A stretch of DNA of 64,000 nt, from positions 62,001-126,000 of the forward strand of contig NZ_AOLQ01000065.1 in the NCBI RefSeq assembly GCF_000337775.1. Reading direction: 5' to 3'. Under the pieces are notes generated by a model. The model did no database searches. It was given only the letters and a program-made list of their open reading frames with translations, and was not told the origin of the DNA. Position 1 is the stretch's first letter. The number at the start of each line of letters is the position of its first letter. Of the stretch, positions 6,827 through 57,352 are shown piece after piece. Position numbers and translations under genes: made by a program. Source of the stretch: Haloarcula vallismortis ATCC 29715 (GTDB taxonomy: Archaea; Halobacteriota; Halobacteria; Halobacteriales; Haloarculaceae).

Positions 6827-7117
6827 ATGGCCAAGTGGCTCCAGAGCGGCCGCCGGCGCGATATGTGTGTCCTGCTGGCCGCCGCCGAGGACGGTGAACT
6901 CTCCGGCCAGCGGCTGAAGACGCGGCTCGAACGCCGCTATGACACGCGAATCGAACCGAAGAGCTTCTACGGCGCGCTCGACGCGCTGGAATCGGCCGGG
7001 TTTGTCTCCCACCGCGAAGACGGTATCGCTGACAAGTACTCGCTGACAGACGCCGGCGAGCAACGGCTTCGGGACCAGTTCGAGTGGATGCGCGAGGCGC
7101 TCGGCGAGGAGGACTAA
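6827..7117 (+). CDS. PadR-like winged-helix transcriptional regulator
   Basis: A 96-residue DNA-binding protein. The fold pattern of a PadR-type winged helix is clear: helix 1 (DMCVLLAAAEDGEL), helix 2 (SGQRLKTRLERRY), recognition helix (EPKSFYGALDALESAGFV) and wing (SHREDGIADKYSLTDAGEQRL). There is no effector domain beyond a short C-terminal helix, as in the smaller PadR group. It may control its divergent neighbour at 6452-6739, or itself; this is inferred from position only. Confidence 0.82.
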   Translation: MAKWLQSGRRRDMCVLLAAAEDGELSGQRLKTRLERRYDTRIEPKSFYGALDALESAGFVSHREDGIADKYSLTDAGEQRLRDQFEWMREALGEED

Positions 7118-7187
7118 ACCGAGAGTGGCGACGCCACTGCCAAGCGGTGACCCCATCTTTTTACTGGATGCCTATACAGAATAAAAT

Positions 7188-7442
7188 ATGTCCCTGTCTC
7201 GGTCACTCCTCTTGGCAGGCCTTGACGCCCTCCCGTTCGCAGCCCTCGCCAGCGTCGCGACGTTCGTCTTCGCACAGGCGGCCAAGCAGCCATCGACACT
7301 CGTCGGAATGCTCGCCGGGACCGTCGGCGTGGCGGTACTTCTGGCGCTGGGGACCATCAGCGCGAACCGCTACCGGGCGGACGGCAAACCGTTCTACTTC
7401 ACGCGCGCGGTCGTCGTCGAAGGGCTGCTTTCGCTCCCTTAG
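7188..7442 (+). CDS. Small membrane protein, two predicted helices
   Basis: An 84-residue protein with two hydrophobic helices (about residues 7-29 and 39-58) and a basic loop after the second (ANRYRADGKPFYFTR). It has no catalytic motif and I do not recognise the family. Its TAG stop at 7440-7442 overlaps the convergent TAA stop of the acyl-CoA dehydrogenase gene (7439-7441), so the two transcripts must run into each other. Confidence 0.7.
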   Translation: MSLSRSLLLAGLDALPFAALASVATFVFAQAAKQPSTLVGMLAGTVGVAVLLALGTISANRYRADGKPFYFTRAVVVEGLLSLP

Positions 7443-8587
7443 TCGAGCAGTTCGCTCGCGATAGTGTTGCGCAGCACTTCGCTGGTCCCCTCGTAGATCT
7501 CGTTGAGTTTGGCGTCGCGGTAGAACCGCTCGGCCGGGAAGTCCTTCGTGTAGCCGTAGCCGCCATGAACCTGAATGCCCTCGTTCGCCACTTCGCGAGA
7601 CACCTCTGAGGCGTACAGTTTGGCCTGTGCGGCCTCCTTGACGAAGGACTCACCGGCCATCTTCTTATCCGCGGCCTGGTGCATCAGCAGGCGGGCAGCC
7701 TGGGTCTTTGTGTCCATGTCGGCGAGTTTGTGCTGGATGGCCTGGAAGTCGCTGATTGGCTGGTCGAACTGCTCGCGGTCCTGCGCGTATTGCAGCGCCT
7801 CGTCCAGTGCGGCCTGAGCGATGCCGACGCCGCGGGCCGCGATGGTGATGCGCCCGCCGTTGAGCGTTTTGAGCGCGTGGACGAACCCGCGGCCTTCCTC
7901 GCCGAGCATACGGTCGGCGGGGATTCGCATGTCGTCGAACCGCAGTTCGGCGGTCGGACAGCCCTTGTCGCCGAGTTTGTGCTCGGTCCCTTCGACGATG
8001 AAGCCGTCGTCTTCCTCGGGGCGGACGATAAACGACGAGATGCCCTTGTTGCCGGCCTCGGGGTCGGTCTTGGCGAACAGGACAACGGTGTCGGCGACAG
8101 ACCCGTTTGAAATCCAGAGCTTGCCGCCGTTGACCAGATAGGCGTCACCGCCGTCGACCGGTTCGGCAGTAGTGTCCATCGACGGCACGTCACTGCCCGC
8201 ACCCGCTTCAGAGAGGGCGAACGCGCCGATTTCCTCGCCCGCTGCCAGCGGCGTGAGATAGGTCTCTTTCTGAGCCTCGTTCCCGAACTCGTAGATCATG
8301 TTGCAGGCCAGCGAGATGTGTGCGGCGACGATTGTGCCGAGCCCGCCGCTCCCACGCGAAATCTCTTCGAGGGCCATGGCGTAGCTGTGGTAGTCCAGTT
8401 CAGCCCCGCCGTACGTCTCCGGAATCGGCATCCCCATCAGGCCGAGGTCGGCCATCTCGTCGACGAGATCCCACGGGAACTCATCGGTTTCGTCGATCTC
8501 CGCCGCCCGTGGCTTGACTTCCTCGTCGACGAAGTCCGCGACCATGTCCTGTATCTGGCGTTGTTCCTGTGTGGGGCTAAAGTCCAT
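7439..8587 (-). CDS. Acyl-CoA dehydrogenase
   Basis: A 382-residue FAD enzyme that oxidises acyl-CoA to 2-enoyl-CoA, passing electrons to an electron-transfer flavoprotein. Length and domain order (alpha helical, beta, alpha helical) are typical. Diagnostic stretches include GAFALSEAGAGSDVPSM at the FAD/substrate region, LNGGRITIAARGVGIAQ, and GGYGYTKDFPAERFYRDAK followed by IYEGTSEVLRN, whose Glu is the usual catalytic base of short/medium-chain enzymes. The gene for a 3-hydroxyacyl-CoA dehydrogenase lies just upstream on the same strand, which fits a fatty or branched acyl-CoA breakdown group. Exact chain-length specificity cannot be read. Confidence 0.93.
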   Translation of the reverse strand: MDFSPTQEQRQIQDMVADFVDEEVKPRAAEIDETDEFPWDLVDEMADLGLMGMPIPETYGGAELDYHSYAMALEEISRGSGGLGTIVAAHISLACNMIYEFGNEAQKETYLTPLAAGEEIGAFALSEAGAGSDVPSMDTTAEPVDGGDAYLVNGGKLWISNGSVADTVVLFAKTDPEAGNKGISSFIVRPEEDDGFIVEGTEHKLGDKGCPTAELRFDDMRIPADRMLGEEGRGFVHALKTLNGGRITIAARGVGIAQAALDEALQYAQDREQFDQPISDFQAIQHKLADMDTKTQAARLLMHQAADKKMAGESFVKEAAQAKLYASEVSREVANEGIQVHGGYGYTKDFPAERFYRDAKLNEIYEGTSEVLRNTIASELLD

Positions 8588-51185: not shown

Positions 51186-52301
51186 ATGGGAATTGCTGAG
51201 TTCGCAAGAGACGGCCGCGTAGTGGTGGGCGAACGGCCGGGAGCAGCAGTGGTGGCCGCTGTCGGTGGCTTCCTCTTGCTGGATTTAGTTGCAAAGCTTG
51301 CTGGGACAACCGTGTTCTTCGTCGGGACCAAGTTGCTGGGTGGCTCCCTCACTGTGAGCTCGTTGCTCTCGATGGTGGTAGACGGGCTGCTCGTCGGACT
51401 GGCGGTCGGGCTCGCCGGAATCGGCCTGTCGATGACATACAGCATCCTCGATTTCGCCAACTTCGCACACGGGGACACAGTAACTGTCGGGGCGTTCCTG
51501 GGGTGGGTCGCCGCGTATATCACCGCCGGCCTCGGGACCGGTGCCCCGATTGCAGAGCTGTTCATGCTCAATTCGGGACGGCAGTTAAGCACCGTTTCGA
51601 CGTTGGCTCCAGTGCTTCTGGGTCTCGTCGTCGCCGGCGTCGGCTCAATCGGCATCGTATTACTCATCGACCGCCTCACCTATCGCCCCATGCGCGACAC
51701 GGACAACATCTCCTTACTGATCGCGTCAATCGGTGTCGCGCTCGCATTGCGCTATCTCATCGCGTTCGTCTTCGGCACGGAAACGAGTGGCGTTGCAAGC
51801 GGCGGGCTCCGGGTGACGGTTTTCTCGATGATCTCGGTGACCGACAACGAAATCACTCTGCTGGTGGTGTCGGTCCTGCTGATGCTCGGCGTCCACCTCC
51901 TGCTACAGCGGACGAAGCTCGGCAAAGCAATGCGGGCGATGGCCGATAACGAAGACCTCGCACGCGTGACTGGGATTCCAACAGAGCGCGTGATTCGGCT
52001 CACGTGGATTCTCGGCGGCGGTCTGGCGGGCATCGGCGGCTACCTGCTCGTGCTGGAAAGCGGGACGATATCGTTCAACTTCGGCTGGATTCTGCTCCTG
52101 CTCATCTTCGCCGCCGTCATCGTCGGCGGCATCGGCTCGATATACGGGGCGATGGCCGGCGGGATTCTCATCGGGCTGGTCGATAGTCTGGCCCTGATCT
52201 GGCTGCCGTCCGGGCTGACGCGGGCCTCCGCGTTTCTGGTGCTCATCGTCGTCCTGTTGTTGCGCCCGTCCGGTATCTTCGGGGGGGTGTCGACAGCATG
52301 A
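51186..52301 (+). CDS. livH: Branched-chain amino acid ABC transporter permease LivH
   Basis: A 371-residue permease with about nine to ten helices. The LivH pattern is visible in LLVGLAVGLAGIGLSMTYSILDFANFAHGDTVTVGAF and the late cytoplasmic loop AMRAMADNEDLARVTGIPTERVIRLTW, the EAA-like ATPase contact. The N-terminal 60 residues include an extra helix (GAAVVAAVGGFLLLDLVAKLA). Its stop overlaps the livM start by four bases (ATGA). It is the first gene of a four-gene operon; substrate (branched-chain amino acids, amides or urea) is not fixed by sequence. Confidence 0.93.
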   Translation: MGIAEFARDGRVVVGERPGAAVVAAVGGFLLLDLVAKLAGTTVFFVGTKLLGGSLTVSSLLSMVVDGLLVGLAVGLAGIGLSMTYSILDFANFAHGDTVTVGAFLGWVAAYITAGLGTGAPIAELFMLNSGRQLSTVSTLAPVLLGLVVAGVGSIGIVLLIDRLTYRPMRDTDNISLLIASIGVALALRYLIAFVFGTETSGVASGGLRVTVFSMISVTDNEITLLVVSVLLMLGVHLLLQRTKLGKAMRAMADNEDLARVTGIPTERVIRLTWILGGGLAGIGGYLLVLESGTISFNFGWILLLLIFAAVIVGGIGSIYGAMAGGILIGLVDSLALIWLPSGLTRASAFLVLIVVLLLRPSGIFGGVSTA

Positions 52302-53581
52302 GTACTGTTGACACTATCCGAGGCCGTCTGGACGCACTCCCGGACGTGGGGCTGGTGGTCGGCTTCATCGGCGCTATCTGGGCCGTCATGCTCGTGCTGG
52401 CTATTGCTGTCGGCGGGGCAAACTGGGCGAACCTCGCCGCTGGCTTCGTCGGCAGCGTAACCGTGCTCATCGGCGGCTACGCGATTCTCGCGCTGGCACT
52501 GAATCTCCAGTGGGGGTACACCGGCCTGTTCAACATCGGTATTGCGGGATTCATGGCCGTCGGTGCATACACGACAGCGATTCTGACCGCACCAACTGAC
52601 CCGGCTGCCGGAGCAGTTCCGGGGCTTGGACTCCCGCTGTGGGTTGGCCTCATCGGCGGCATGGTGATGGCCGCTATCGTCGGGGGTCTCGCGGCGCTGC
52701 CGGCGCTCCGACTGAAAGCCGACTACCTCGCTATCGTGACGGTCGCGTTCTCCGAAATCATCCGGCTCATCGTCAACTGGGACGGTCTCGCCGAGGTCTC
52801 GCTGTTCGGGGTGCCGGTCGGAACCGGCGGCGCGACCGGCATCTCGTTCAAGTCCGCGAACGATGTGGCGTCGACGCTCATCAACGGCGTCGGGCAGCCG
52901 CTCGTAACTGCCGCGGAAGGCGTCGGCGTCTCCGGGCCGAACCTGGCGAATCTCACCTACGGGATACTCCTCCTGCTGGTCGTGGCCGCGAGCTACTGGG
53001 TGCTTGCCCGCATTACGGACTCGCCGTTCGGTCGCGTGCTGAAGGCGATCCGTGAGGACGAGACCGTGACCCAGTCACTCGGCAAGGACACCCGTCTGTT
53101 CAAGATCAAGACCTTCATGATCGGTTGCGCGCTGATGGGGCTGGCCGGCGTCCTGTTCCGTGGCCAGGCGGGCTACATCAGCCCACAGCAGTTCAGACCG
53201 ACAATCACGTTCTACGTGTTCGCGGCGCTCATCATCGGCGGCTCCGGGTCCAACACCGGCAGTATCGTCGGTGCAGCGACGTTCTCGGGGCTGCTGTTCT
53301 ATCTGCCGGCTCGGTTAGGGGAGAACATCTCGCTGGGCGGCACCCGCGCACCCGGCAACATCGTCGACGCGGTCGCTGGATTCGCGTCGCTGGACCCGGC
53401 TCCACTCCTCGCATACATCATTAGCAACGTCAGCACGCTCCGGTTCGTCCTCATCGGTGTCGTACTGATATACATCATCCAGAACCAGCCAGATGGGCTG
53501 CTCGGGCATCGGAACGAACCCGCAACGAGCGTGAGTCTGGACAGACCACAGTCCGGGTCCGGAGGTGAGACCGATGAGTGA
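52298..53581 (+). CDS. livM: Branched-chain amino acid ABC transporter permease LivM
   Basis: A 427-residue permease with about ten helices. Characteristic regions are LALNLQWGYTGLFNIGIAGFMAVGAYTTAIL and LPALRLKADYLAIVTVAFSEIIRLIV, typical of LivM. The ATPase contact loop is GRVLKAIREDETVTQSLGKDTRLFKIKTF. FRGQAGYISPQQFRPTITF follows. It overlaps livH by four bases and livG by eight, so translation is coupled. It pairs with LivH as the transport channel. Confidence 0.93.
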   Translation: MSTVDTIRGRLDALPDVGLVVGFIGAIWAVMLVLAIAVGGANWANLAAGFVGSVTVLIGGYAILALALNLQWGYTGLFNIGIAGFMAVGAYTTAILTAPTDPAAGAVPGLGLPLWVGLIGGMVMAAIVGGLAALPALRLKADYLAIVTVAFSEIIRLIVNWDGLAEVSLFGVPVGTGGATGISFKSANDVASTLINGVGQPLVTAAEGVGVSGPNLANLTYGILLLLVVAASYWVLARITDSPFGRVLKAIREDETVTQSLGKDTRLFKIKTFMIGCALMGLAGVLFRGQAGYISPQQFRPTITFYVFAALIIGGSGSNTGSIVGAATFSGLLFYLPARLGENISLGGTRAPGNIVDAVAGFASLDPAPLLAYIISNVSTLRFVLIGVVLIYIIQNQPDGLLGHRNEPATSVSLDRPQSGSGGETDE

Positions 53582-54404
53582 ACCCGAGGCTGCACCGCGA
53601 CAGGAGACCGCCGTTACAAGTGACGCCATCGAGTCGCCGCTGCTGGAGGTCGACGGCCTCCGAAAGGAGTTCGGCGGTGTCGTCGCGGTCGACGGGGCGA
53701 CGTTCTCCGTGGCAGAGGGGTCGCTCACCGGCCTTATCGGTCCGAACGGGGCCGGCAAATCGACGACGTTCAACTGCATCACGGGCATTCACGAGCCGAC
53801 CGGCGGGCGGGTCACCTTCGACGGGCAGGACATTACCGGGCTCGCGCCGTACACGCTCGCGAACCGCGGGCTGGTTCGGACGTTCCAGATCGCGCGTGAA
53901 CTGTCCGAGATGACCGTTCTGGAGAACGTGATGCTCGCGCCGGGCGGGCAGGTCGGGGAATCGGTCCTCCGCTCGGTGACGCCGGGGCTTCGCAGCGAGG
54001 TCATCAAAGCCGAAGCGGCTGTTCGGGACCGCGCGTGGGAGACACTGGAGTTCTTCGAGATCGACCACCTCGCCCACGAGAACGCCGGAAATCTCTCGGG
54101 CGGCCAGCGGAAACTGCTTGAGATGGCCCGGGTCCTGATGACCGACCCCGAGATGATTCTGCTGGACGAACCGCTCGCCGGCGTCAATCCGACGCTCGAA
54201 GAGAAACTGCTGGAGCGAATCCACGAGCTCCGCCGAGAGCAGGGGCTGACCTTCCTGCTCGTCGAACACGACATGGATGTCATCATGAACAACTGCGAAC
54301 ACATCATCGTCATGCATCAGGGGAGCGTCCTCGCCGAAGGGGACGCCGAGACTATCACATCGGACGAGCGGGTACTTGAGGCGTATCTTGGAGGGGATGT
54401 ATGA
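53574..54404 (+). CDS. livG: Branched-chain amino acid ABC transporter ATPase LivG
   Basis: A 276-residue ATPase. Walker A is GPNGAGKSTTFNC, the signature NLSGGQRKLLEMAR, Walker B MILLDEPLAGVNP and the H-loop LLVEHDMDVIM. The LivG-type insertion (residues about 110-165, PGGQVGESVLRSVTPG) is present. The start at 53574 is supported by a full GGAGGTGA at 53561-53568; a frame start nine bases upstream is ignored. It overlaps livF by four bases (ATGA). Confidence 0.94.
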   Translation: MSEPEAAPRQETAVTSDAIESPLLEVDGLRKEFGGVVAVDGATFSVAEGSLTGLIGPNGAGKSTTFNCITGIHEPTGGRVTFDGQDITGLAPYTLANRGLVRTFQIARELSEMTVLENVMLAPGGQVGESVLRSVTPGLRSEVIKAEAAVRDRAWETLEFFEIDHLAHENAGNLSGGQRKLLEMARVLMTDPEMILLDEPLAGVNPTLEEKLLERIHELRREQGLTFLLVEHDMDVIMNNCEHIIVMHQGSVLAEGDAETITSDERVLEAYLGGDV

Positions 54405-55156
54405 GCCAGCGCGCAACGGCGTCAGAGACCGTTACGCTCCCCGACCCGGCCGAGCGACTCCTTGCTATCCGAAACCTCGACGCAGGCTACGGCGACTTGC
54501 AGGTGCTCAGCGACGTTCACATGGACGTTGCCGACGGCGAGTACGTGGTCATCGTCGGCCCGAACGGAGCCGGCAAGTCGACAGTGATGAAATCCGTCTT
54601 CGGCCTGACGACGTATATGGGCGGAGAGGTCATCTTCGACGAGACCGACATCAGCCAGCGCAACCCCGACGAAATTATTTACGAGGGCATCAGCTACGTT
54701 CCCCAGACTGGGAACGTATTCGGCTCGCTGAGTGTGCGCGAGAATCTCGAAATGGGCGCGTACATCCTCGATGAAGTGCCGGAGGACCGGATCGAAGACG
54801 TGTACGACCGGTTCCCCATTCTCCGGGAGCGGTCCGAGCAGTCGGCCGGAACGCTGTCGGGCGGCCAACAGCAGATGCTCGCCATGGGCCGGGCGCTGAT
54901 GCTCGACCCCGACCTGCTGTTGCTCGACGAGCCCTCTGCTGGGCTCGCGCCCGACCTCGTCGAGGATATGTTCGACCGCATCGACCGCATCAACGACGAC
55001 GGCACGGCTATTCTGATGGTCGAGCAAAACGCCAAGGAAGCACTCCGGCGGTGTGACCGAGGCTACGTGCTCGTGCAGGGTCAGAACCGCTACGAGGACG
55101 ACGGGACGGTCCTCCTAAACGACGAGCAGGTTCGTCAGGACTTCCTCGGCGGATAA
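54401..55156 (+). CDS. livF: Branched-chain amino acid ABC transporter ATPase LivF
   Basis: A 251-residue ATPase. Walker A is GPNGAGKSTVMKS, the signature TLSGGQQQMLAMGRAL, Walker B LLLLDEPSAGLAP and the switch MVEQNAKEALRRCDRGYVLVQG. The short length with no LivG insertion marks it as LivF. It is the last gene of the liv operon and faces the binding-protein gene across 29 bases. Confidence 0.94.
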   Translation: MSQRATASETVTLPDPAERLLAIRNLDAGYGDLQVLSDVHMDVADGEYVVIVGPNGAGKSTVMKSVFGLTTYMGGEVIFDETDISQRNPDEIIYEGISYVPQTGNVFGSLSVRENLEMGAYILDEVPEDRIEDVYDRFPILRERSEQSAGTLSGGQQQMLAMGRALMLDPDLLLLDEPSAGLAPDLVEDMFDRIDRINDDGTAILMVEQNAKEALRRCDRGYVLVQGQNRYEDDGTVLLNDEQVRQDFLGG

Positions 55157-55185: not shown

Positions 55186-56553
55186 TTACTGGTTCATCGC
55201 GCTGTTGATTTCAGACGTGTAGGAGGACTGCTGTTGCTCGAAGCCGACCTGATTGACGATGGTCCCGCCTTCCGCTTCGAACGCGCCGGCGAACGCCTCC
55301 TGTAGCGCCTGCCCGTAGCTGTTGTTCACGTACAGTGTCGATGCGGTCTCGGCACCGAGTTCGTCCACGCCGACTTGCGCCAGAACCTGCCCCTGCAGGG
55401 CGTCGCTTGGCGGGGTACGGAACATGTAGTCGTTGTCTTCGAGGTCGGTGATCGTCGGCGACGTAGACGCCGGTGAACAGCCGACGACGCTGTTGTCGAT
55501 GAGTACGTTCCTGGCGACCTGTATGGACGTTTCGGAGCTTGCCGCCCCGGTAATCGACGGATAGCCCGCGCTGACGAGGGAGTTGGCCGCGTCGATGCCC
55601 GCCTGTGCCTGCGTCTGGGTGTCGCCGACCTGATAGTCGAACTCGAAGTCGACTTCGCCTTCGAGTTGCAGGGCCGGAAGTATCGCGCCGTCGCGGATCG
55701 GCCTGCCGAGCGGCCCGAGGTCGCCGGTTTCGGGCATCAGCACACCGAACCGAATCGTCCGTCCGGAGTCGCTCCCGGAGCCGTTCGGTTCCGGCTGTGG
55801 GATGTCGTCGCCAGCGCTGAAGTCCACAGTGTTGAGCGTATCGACGCCCCCACCGTCCTGAAAGCCAAAGACCTGATACTGGGCCGATGCCATGTCTCCG
55901 TTTTCGTCGAAGTCGACCGCACTCGAGGCACCCTCGTACTGGATGTTCTCGCCTGCGGCGGCCGCTTCGACGGCCGCTGGCAACTCGGAGGGACCGTACG
56001 TGTCACCCCCGGGATTGGCGACAACGCGCATGTGGTCCCGGACGGCCTGTCCGTCGTTTTCCCCGGCCAGCAGGTTGGCGAGGATCTGGACCGCTGTCGC
56101 GTCGTAGGCCTGTGACGTGAACACGCCGGCTTCGTCGTAGTCAAACTCAGAGGTGAACTGCTCGGTGAACGTGTCGACGCCCGGCCCGGCCGCTGACGGG
56201 GCTGTGCCGCGGACGTTCGACATGTCGTTGCCGACGTTGCTCGGGAGTTCGCCGTCTTGCAGCCCGTCGGTCACGAGGATGTCGGCGGCGTCGTCACCGT
56301 AGTCGGCGTAGAAGTCCTTGAACAGTTGGACACCGCTTTGGGGGTAGCCGACGACCATCAGCACGTCCGGCGACTCCGGACCGCTGTCGCCACCGGATTC
56401 GGTCCCGGTTCCGGTCATGCCGCCGTCGCCGCCATCGCCGCCGTCTCCGCCGGTCTGTTCAGTCGAACAGCCTGCTAACCCGCCAAGCAGACCGACAGTG
56501 CTTATCGCCCCGGTGCGCTTCAGGAACGCTCGCCGATTGATATCGCGAGACAT
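55186..56553 (-). CDS. Type I solute-binding lipoprotein with halves in swapped order (LivJ-like, circularly permuted)
   Basis: A 455-residue exported lipoprotein. A Tat signal (NRRAFLKRTG) and LAGC lipobox are followed by a Gly-rich spacer. Residues 62-236 resemble the second half of LivJ-type proteins (PDVLMVVGYPQSGVQLFKDF to MASAQYQVFGFQDGG). After the linker PQPEPNGSGSDSG, residues 266-455 resemble the first half (TIRFGVLMPETGDLGPLGRP to SSYTSEINSAMNQ), so the normal order is reversed. Normally these halves are joined at ...SEINSAMNQ-PDVLMVVGY..., where here the chain ends and begins. The start at 56553 is set by the signal. It faces the liv operon tail-to-tail and probably serves that transporter. 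Confidence 0.88.
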   Translation of the reverse strand: MSRDINRRAFLKRTGAISTVGLLGGLAGCSTEQTGGDGGDGGDGGMTGTGTESGGDSGPESPDVLMVVGYPQSGVQLFKDFYADYGDDAADILVTDGLQDGELPSNVGNDMSNVRGTAPSAAGPGVDTFTEQFTSEFDYDEAGVFTSQAYDATAVQILANLLAGENDGQAVRDHMRVVANPGGDTYGPSELPAAVEAAAAGENIQYEGASSAVDFDENGDMASAQYQVFGFQDGGGVDTLNTVDFSAGDDIPQPEPNGSGSDSGRTIRFGVLMPETGDLGPLGRPIRDGAILPALQLEGEVDFEFDYQVGDTQTQAQAGIDAANSLVSAGYPSITGAASSETSIQVARNVLIDNSVVGCSPASTSPTITDLEDNDYMFRTPPSDALQGQVLAQVGVDELGAETASTLYVNNSYGQALQEAFAGAFEAEGGTIVNQVGFEQQQSSYTSEINSAMNQ

Positions 56554-56740: not shown

Positions 56741-57352
56741 TTATTCGACGCGACCGACGACCTTCTCGTACTCTTCAGCAGCCTTGTCCCAGTCGACAAC
56801 CTCGAAGAAGGCGTCGATGAAGTCACCGCGGGCGGGACCGTAGTCGTAGTAATAGGAGTGCTCCCAGACATCGAGTGCGAGGATGGGATGGGAGCCCCAG
56901 AGCGCGCCCTGATCGTGCTTGTCGACCGGCACGTTGCGCAGTTGCTTGGCAACGGGGTCGTACACGAGCAGCGCCCAGCCGCCGGCGGCTGATGCGGCGG
57001 CTTCGAACTCGCCCTTCCAGCCTTCGTAGGAACCGAAGTCCTCCTCGATGCGGTCGCGGAGGTCTCCGTCCGGCTCACCGCCGCCGTTGGGGTCCATGTT
57101 CTCCCAGAACAGCGTGTGGAGGTAGTGACCACAGCCGTTGTGGGTGACGTTCCCCATCGCAGCAGCGCTCGAACCGAAGTCGCCGGACTCACGGTTCTCG
57201 GCGAGTGTCTCCTCGGCCGATTCGAGGCCGTTTACGTACCCCTGATGGTGGGTGTCGTGGTGCCAGGTGAGCACCTGCTCGGAGATGTGTGGCTCCAGTG
57301 CGTCGTAGTCGTACGGGAGCGGTGGCAGTTCGGGATTTGAATGTTCGGACAT
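56741..57352 (-). CDS. sod: Superoxide dismutase (Fe/Mn)
   Basis: A 203-residue cytoplasmic enzyme that converts superoxide to oxygen and peroxide. The start region PPLPYDYDALEPHISEQV is typical. Metal ligands are in EPHISEQVLTWHHDTHHQGYV (first His), GCGHYLHTLFWENM (second His) and LALDVWEHSYYYDYG (Asp and His). The stretch GGWALLVYDPVAKQL fits the family. Haloarchaeal enzymes of this kind use manganese; the metal is inferred. Confidence 0.96.
   Translation of the reverse strand: MSEHSNPELPPLPYDYDALEPHISEQVLTWHHDTHHQGYVNGLESAEETLAENRESGDFGSSAAAMGNVTHNGCGHYLHTLFWENMDPNGGGEPDGDLRDRIEEDFGSYEGWKGEFEAAASAAGGWALLVYDPVAKQLRNVPVDKHDQGALWGSHPILALDVWEHSYYYDYGPARGDFIDAFFEVVDWDKAAEEYEKVVGRVE

Follow-up and report, generated by a model that had tools for sequence, protein, structure and literature searches.

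The locus studied here raises the question of whether a gene for a LivJ-type substrate-binding lipoprotein, with the two halves of its chain in swapped order, is a natural circular permutation in use beside its transporter, and how such an order could have come about. It lies in a 64,000-nucleotide stretch (the window) of Haloarcula vallismortis ATCC 29715 (contig NZ_AOLQ01000065.1, positions 62,001 to 126,000). We consider it very probable that the gene codes for a naturally circularly permuted type I (LivJ/HAAT-type) binding lipoprotein serving LivHMGF, and that the order of halves has switched in place more than once.

The permuted gene and its surroundings

The relevant features, in window coordinates, are the following.

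51186 to 52301, forward strand: LivH permease (PF02653)
52298 to 53581, forward strand: LivM permease (PF02653)
53565 to 54404, forward strand: LivG ATPase (profile matches)
54401 to 55156, forward strand: LivF ATPase, tail-to-tail with the receptor gene (profile matches)
55186 to 56553, reverse strand: circularly permuted (CP1) LivJ-type substrate-binding lipoprotein gene, 455 amino acids (sequence, doubled profile, orthologues)
56467 to 56553, reverse strand: Tat signal (NRRAFLKR) and lipobox LAGC (Cys29), residues 1 to 29 (sequence)
56374 to 56466, reverse strand: Gly/Asp-rich tether, residues 30 to 60 (sequence)
55813 to 56373, reverse strand: C-half of the LivJ fold (canonical columns 199 to 383), residues 61 to 247 (doubled profile, model)
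55762 to 55812, reverse strand: junction linker from the old C terminus to the old N terminus, about residues 248 to 264 (alignment, model)
55189 to 55761, reverse strand: N-half of the LivJ fold (canonical columns 1 to 198), residues 265 to 455 (PF13458, doubled profile, structure match)

By open reading frame, the gene starts with the ATG at 56553. Its product matches PF13458 (Peripla_BP_6) with 84 bits against a cutoff of 31.7, in two out-of-order stretches, the better one aligning residues 266 to 454 with profile positions 1 to 188. A 383-column profile of normal-order haloarchaeal relatives was concatenated to itself (2x383), and against this doubled profile the window protein gave a single unbroken match of 566 bits, from column 199 to column 581, i.e., columns 199 to 383 followed by 1 to 198. 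Such an unbroken match is the signature of a circular permutation. By the doubled profile, the protein does not have the canonical order of N-half before C-half, and the gene is a natural circular permutation running C-half, linker, N-half after the Tat/lipobox signal, exactly as the original prediction had read it from the sequence. The cut falls between the strand PDVLMVVGY and the helix that precedes it, and the N-half ends in ...SYTSEINSAMNQ. The tether differs in length among orthologues. The junction linker (ca. 17 to 20 residues) is neither helix nor strand in the AlphaFold2 model. As for the putative ligand site, its acid, Asp96, sits in the C-half, while Ser340, Thr364 and Tyr413 are in the N-half.

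The livH-livM-livG-livF operon (51186 to 55156, forward strand) is complete, and only 29 bp separate its end from the stop codon of the receptor gene, which is linked to it. On the other side, upstream of the receptor gene, there is a superoxide dismutase-like gene (56741 to 57352, reverse strand), an adjacency that is conserved in close relatives. The same genome also carries a normal-order LivJ-type paralogue (contig C55, 18226 to 19359; locus L116) in a separate liv operon. It has 47 and 43% identity to the window protein in the two halves and its own adjoining livHMGF, and differs in having the normal order and a conventional co-directional livJHMGF arrangement.

Distribution across the Halobacteriales

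The window genome is a draft of 69 contigs, and one could suspect an assembly error or a chimaeric contig that put together an ordinary gene with its two halves reversed. The distribution of CP1 makes this extremely improbable. The permuted order was found colinear and at full length in 28 of the 32 genomes of the genus (73 to 98% identity), in many genera of the family (46 to 61%) and, beyond this family, in several others of the order. Full-length colinear matches span from 98% down to 46% identity, with E values down to 1e-290, which excludes chance. Within an even sample of the order (392 genomes), CP1 was present at E values up to 1e-76 in 159 genomes belonging to 36 of the 95 genera, among them Haloarcula, Halorubrum, Haloferax, Halobellus, Natrialba, Natronorubrum, Haloquadratum, Halorussus and Haladaptatus. 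An unbroken match to a normal-order query (E up to 1e-80) was obtained for 177 of the 392, and some genomes carry both orders. Identical order and cut thus recur in more than 150 species, in independent assemblies and in complete chromosomes (Haladaptatus and Halomicrococcus), always as a single open reading frame at the same locus. The finished chromosome of Halomicrococcus gelatinilyticus has one permuted and one normal copy. With this conservation across species and in finished genomes, we discarded an assembly join; the search of haloarchaeal genomes with the whole chain had been proposed as a check on the prediction, and it recovered conserved permuted orthologues. Outside the Halobacteriales, no permutation appeared in the sample of the phylum, where hits were split and in normal order only.

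The two halves of the CP1 gene are both under purifying selection, with dN/dS values of 0.01 to 0.13 in each when the window gene is compared with its relatives. A decaying or chimaeric gene was also considered, and is rejected by these values together with the intact ligand residues. The claim that both halves are intact is supported by the evidence of selection and of the invariant ligand-site positions described below.

Some individual loci deserve mention. Halorussus halobius (G287) has two permuted copies with equal scores on separate contigs (C4:10425 and C7:71955). At locus L104 (G288, 7095 to 8476), the permuted gene is interrupted by an insertion of ca. 1.4 kb that is probably a mobile element. 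At two others (L127, in G086, and L252), an in-frame stop splits a normal-order gene into separate N-half and C-half frames.

Predicted fold and ligand site

The mature window protein was modelled with AlphaFold2 from 69 CP1 sequences (pLDDT 89.9, pTM 0.86), and in this confident model the chain is predicted to close into a single two-lobe type I fold. By prediction, then, the protein belongs to this fold class, in line with what had been expected of it. Model residues 208 to 398 match residues 1 to 192 of LivJ-type crystal structures (e.g., 3ipc, Z 13.0 over 189 residues). Both aligners used, Foldseek and VIA-align, work sequentially and covered model residues 206 to 398; for the closure of the whole CP1 chain, the evidence is the confident global model and not a direct superposition. 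A phmmer search with the C-half alone gave no PDB relatives at useful E values; the homology of this half to the fold is based on haloarchaeal homologues in normal order, whose match to LivK 3td9 is a single stretch.

Ser79, Thr102, Tyr150 and Asp226, the amino-acid contact positions of Atu2422, correspond to Ser340, Thr364, Tyr413 and Asp96 here. The window protein carries all four predicted ligand-site residues, and they are invariant in all permuted sequences (CP1 and the second permutation, CP2, described below) and nearly so in normal ones. As both halves contribute to these four, the site can form only if the swapped halves still come together.

A second permutation at the same locus

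At five loci (L111 to L115, in G140, G139, G133, G127 and G124) the gene in the same place beside livF has another order, CP2, whose match to the doubled profile runs over columns 46 to 426. Here, the first strand and helix alone have been relocated to the C terminus. All five loci come from fragmentary assemblies with high contig counts, and they are mutually consistent with open frames; one could be placed in a named collection, as a metagenome-assembled genome (PXRL01000007.1). The AlphaFold2 model of CP2 (pLDDT 90.2, pTM 0.85) matched 3td9 with a Z of 30.1 over 304 residues, with the opening strand and helix of the target unmatched. CP2 originated within a CP1 lineage, and its linker resembles that of the CP1 group within which it nests.

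Hence, depending on the species, one locus tail-to-tail with livHMGF holds three topologies: normal, CP1 and CP2. The tail-to-tail placement with livF was seen for 97 of 111 CP1 gene copies, 5 of 5 CP2 and 47 of 61 normal ones, some loci being counted twice. The complete operon and its retained placement in relatives lend support to the earlier suggestion that the gene is likely in use.

Evolution of the half order

All binding-protein sequences were put into canonical order before the tree was built. CP1 fell into separate blocks, the first made up of the window genus and a few other members of the family, the second a Halorubrum-type group paired with normal-order proteins (100/98), and the third a large group (100/100) with CP2 nested inside. 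A single permuted clade was rejected with the whole binding protein (p = 1.2e-4) and with the N-half alone (p = 5.5e-5). How the binding protein was rearranged for the analysis has no bearing on the LivHMGF tree, which recovered the same key groupings, with the Halorubrum-type group again beside normal-order relatives (97), and rejected one clade of transporters partnered with permuted proteins (p = 5e-69). Together, both trees indicate that the order changed on more than one occasion while the transporter at the locus stayed in place, i.e., the halves have apparently switched repeatedly in place at the livHMGF locus. Relatives of the binding protein outside the order (the outgroup, from the phylum sample) are all in normal order, which makes this the ancestral state.

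The number of origins is a different matter. All CP1 groups have an identical cut point, and their junction linkers are alike (similar length and an AD..PG motif), and these features favour one old permutation, followed by reversions or module exchange, over independent origins. Reversion to the normal order or exchange of N-halves between genes may account for the pattern in place of fully independent origins. In keeping with a single ancient event, after which later reversion or N-half exchange between normal and permuted genes would have created the appearance of multiple origins, one permuted clade was not rejected by the C-half alone (p = 0.13), and the window block and the large block were compatible with one clade (p = 0.315). 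However, the real conflict comes from the Halorubrum-type group, whose pairing with normal-order relatives is found in both trees and whose C-half fits beside them as well (p = 0.57). The outcome of the transporter tree also stands against a single event, and a reversion to normal order is itself a switch of topology. Altogether, we regard one ancient permutation as possible though rather unlikely. The AD..PG motif, common to CP1 groups that are separated in the trees, would be unexplained if their origins were independent.

We lean instead toward the locus being a hot spot of circular permutation, at which normal, CP1 and CP2 genes replaced each other several times while the cognate transporter was kept. 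The likeliest route for a change of topology is that the mature part was duplicated in tandem and then trimmed; each topology may have been cut out of short-lived fused tandem duplicates (N-C-N-C). Tandem CP1 pairs beside livHMGF in Haladaptatus-type genomes (L079, L080, L081, L084, L117 and L178) indicate that duplication does happen at this locus. Fused N-C-N-C or three-half intermediates were absent from the ca. 270 loci examined. Tandem duplication with loss of the ends, the origin put forward at the outset, thus remains the preferred mechanism, but within a more complex history of three topologies and repeated switching.

Proposed export and function of the permuted receptor

For the export, ligand and transporter coupling of the CP1 protein, we infer a working cycle like that of an ordinary LivJ. 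The chain would fold in the cytoplasm, be exported folded by Tat and become lipid anchored through the Gly/Asp tether; it would then bind an amino acid between its lobes and deliver it to LivHMGF. The main physical change may be that the membrane tether leads into lobe 2, where it joins the strand PDVLMVVGY, and no longer into lobe 1 (lobes assigned as in LivJ), the former termini being bridged by the linker of ca. 17 to 20 residues.

The gene converges on livHMGF and is therefore transcribed separately, and other LivJ-like proteins are present in these genomes. Both facts would suit a stand-alone sensor or binding lipoprotein, with another LivJ serving this LivHMGF. However, normal-order homologues in sister lineages hold the same position beside the same transporter, and the LivHMGF tree follows that of the binding protein at key nodes, making a stand-alone role improbable. 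In Haloquadratum, high expression is recorded for a protein named LivJ1 (PMC9684190), and a LivJ1 changes in the proteome of Haloferax (PMC12240190); either may be the product of the permuted gene or another LivJ.

Comparison with other binding proteins

The window protein shares with LivJ/LivK-type (HAAT, PF13458) proteins the family, the (predicted) two-lobe fold, the ligand-site residues, the liv operon partner and export as a lipoprotein. It differs from them in its swapped halves, in the tether leading into lobe 2 and in the extra linker of ca. 17 to 20 residues. Its normal-order haloarchaeal homologues at the same locus are 50 to 63% identical per half.

When the gene was first noticed, no described natural permutation in this transporter family was known. 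For type I binding proteins at large this does not hold, as one is on record, in a sugar-binding family and with another cut: TpMglB-2 (Tp0684) of Treponema pallidum, a tethered glucose receptor that is a natural circular permutation (PMC4990184). For haloarchaea or liv transporters, we found none described in the open literature searched, most subscription journals being outside its scope. TpMglB-2 was not among the PDB sequence matches of the window protein (E up to 0.1). Both are naturally permuted, tethered type I proteins of an ABC importer, and TpMglB-2 keeps binding and closing (PMC4990184). The window protein is of the same kind, differing in family, domain of life and cut. TpMglB-2 is bacterial and sugar binding, with the cut after the third N-lobe strand and a poorly alignable permuted part (13%) (PMC4990184), whereas the window protein is archaeal and of an amino-acid-type family, and the cuts at its locus fall within lobe 2 in CP1 and behind the first strand and helix in CP2. 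The authors proposed a "Type Ic / Cluster Bc" for TpMglB-2 and raised a possible connection with anchoring (PMC4990184). By the doubled profile and the model, the window protein agrees with this class in having a type I fold in permuted order, but its C terminus holds the whole N-half rather than the three N-lobe strands by which the class is defined (PMC4990184). Beyond TpMglB-2, the haloarchaeal locus adds a second topology at the same place, close normal-order orthologues and repeated switching.

Profile annotation misses the permuted topology, as Pfam gives two ordinary-looking partial matches. The usual picture of a natural circular permutation is of one event, long past, whose products align badly. 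At this locus, the normal order and two different permutations are orthologous, share 45 to 65% identity and adjoin the same transporter, and some of the genera concerned (Haloferax) can be manipulated genetically in the laboratory. Engineered biosensors are widely built from circularly permuted binding proteins, for which cut points tolerated in nature are of use. If the locus is indeed a hot spot of permutation, topology in this family would be an evolving trait, near-neutral or tuning the anchor, and not something fixed once and for all with the fold.
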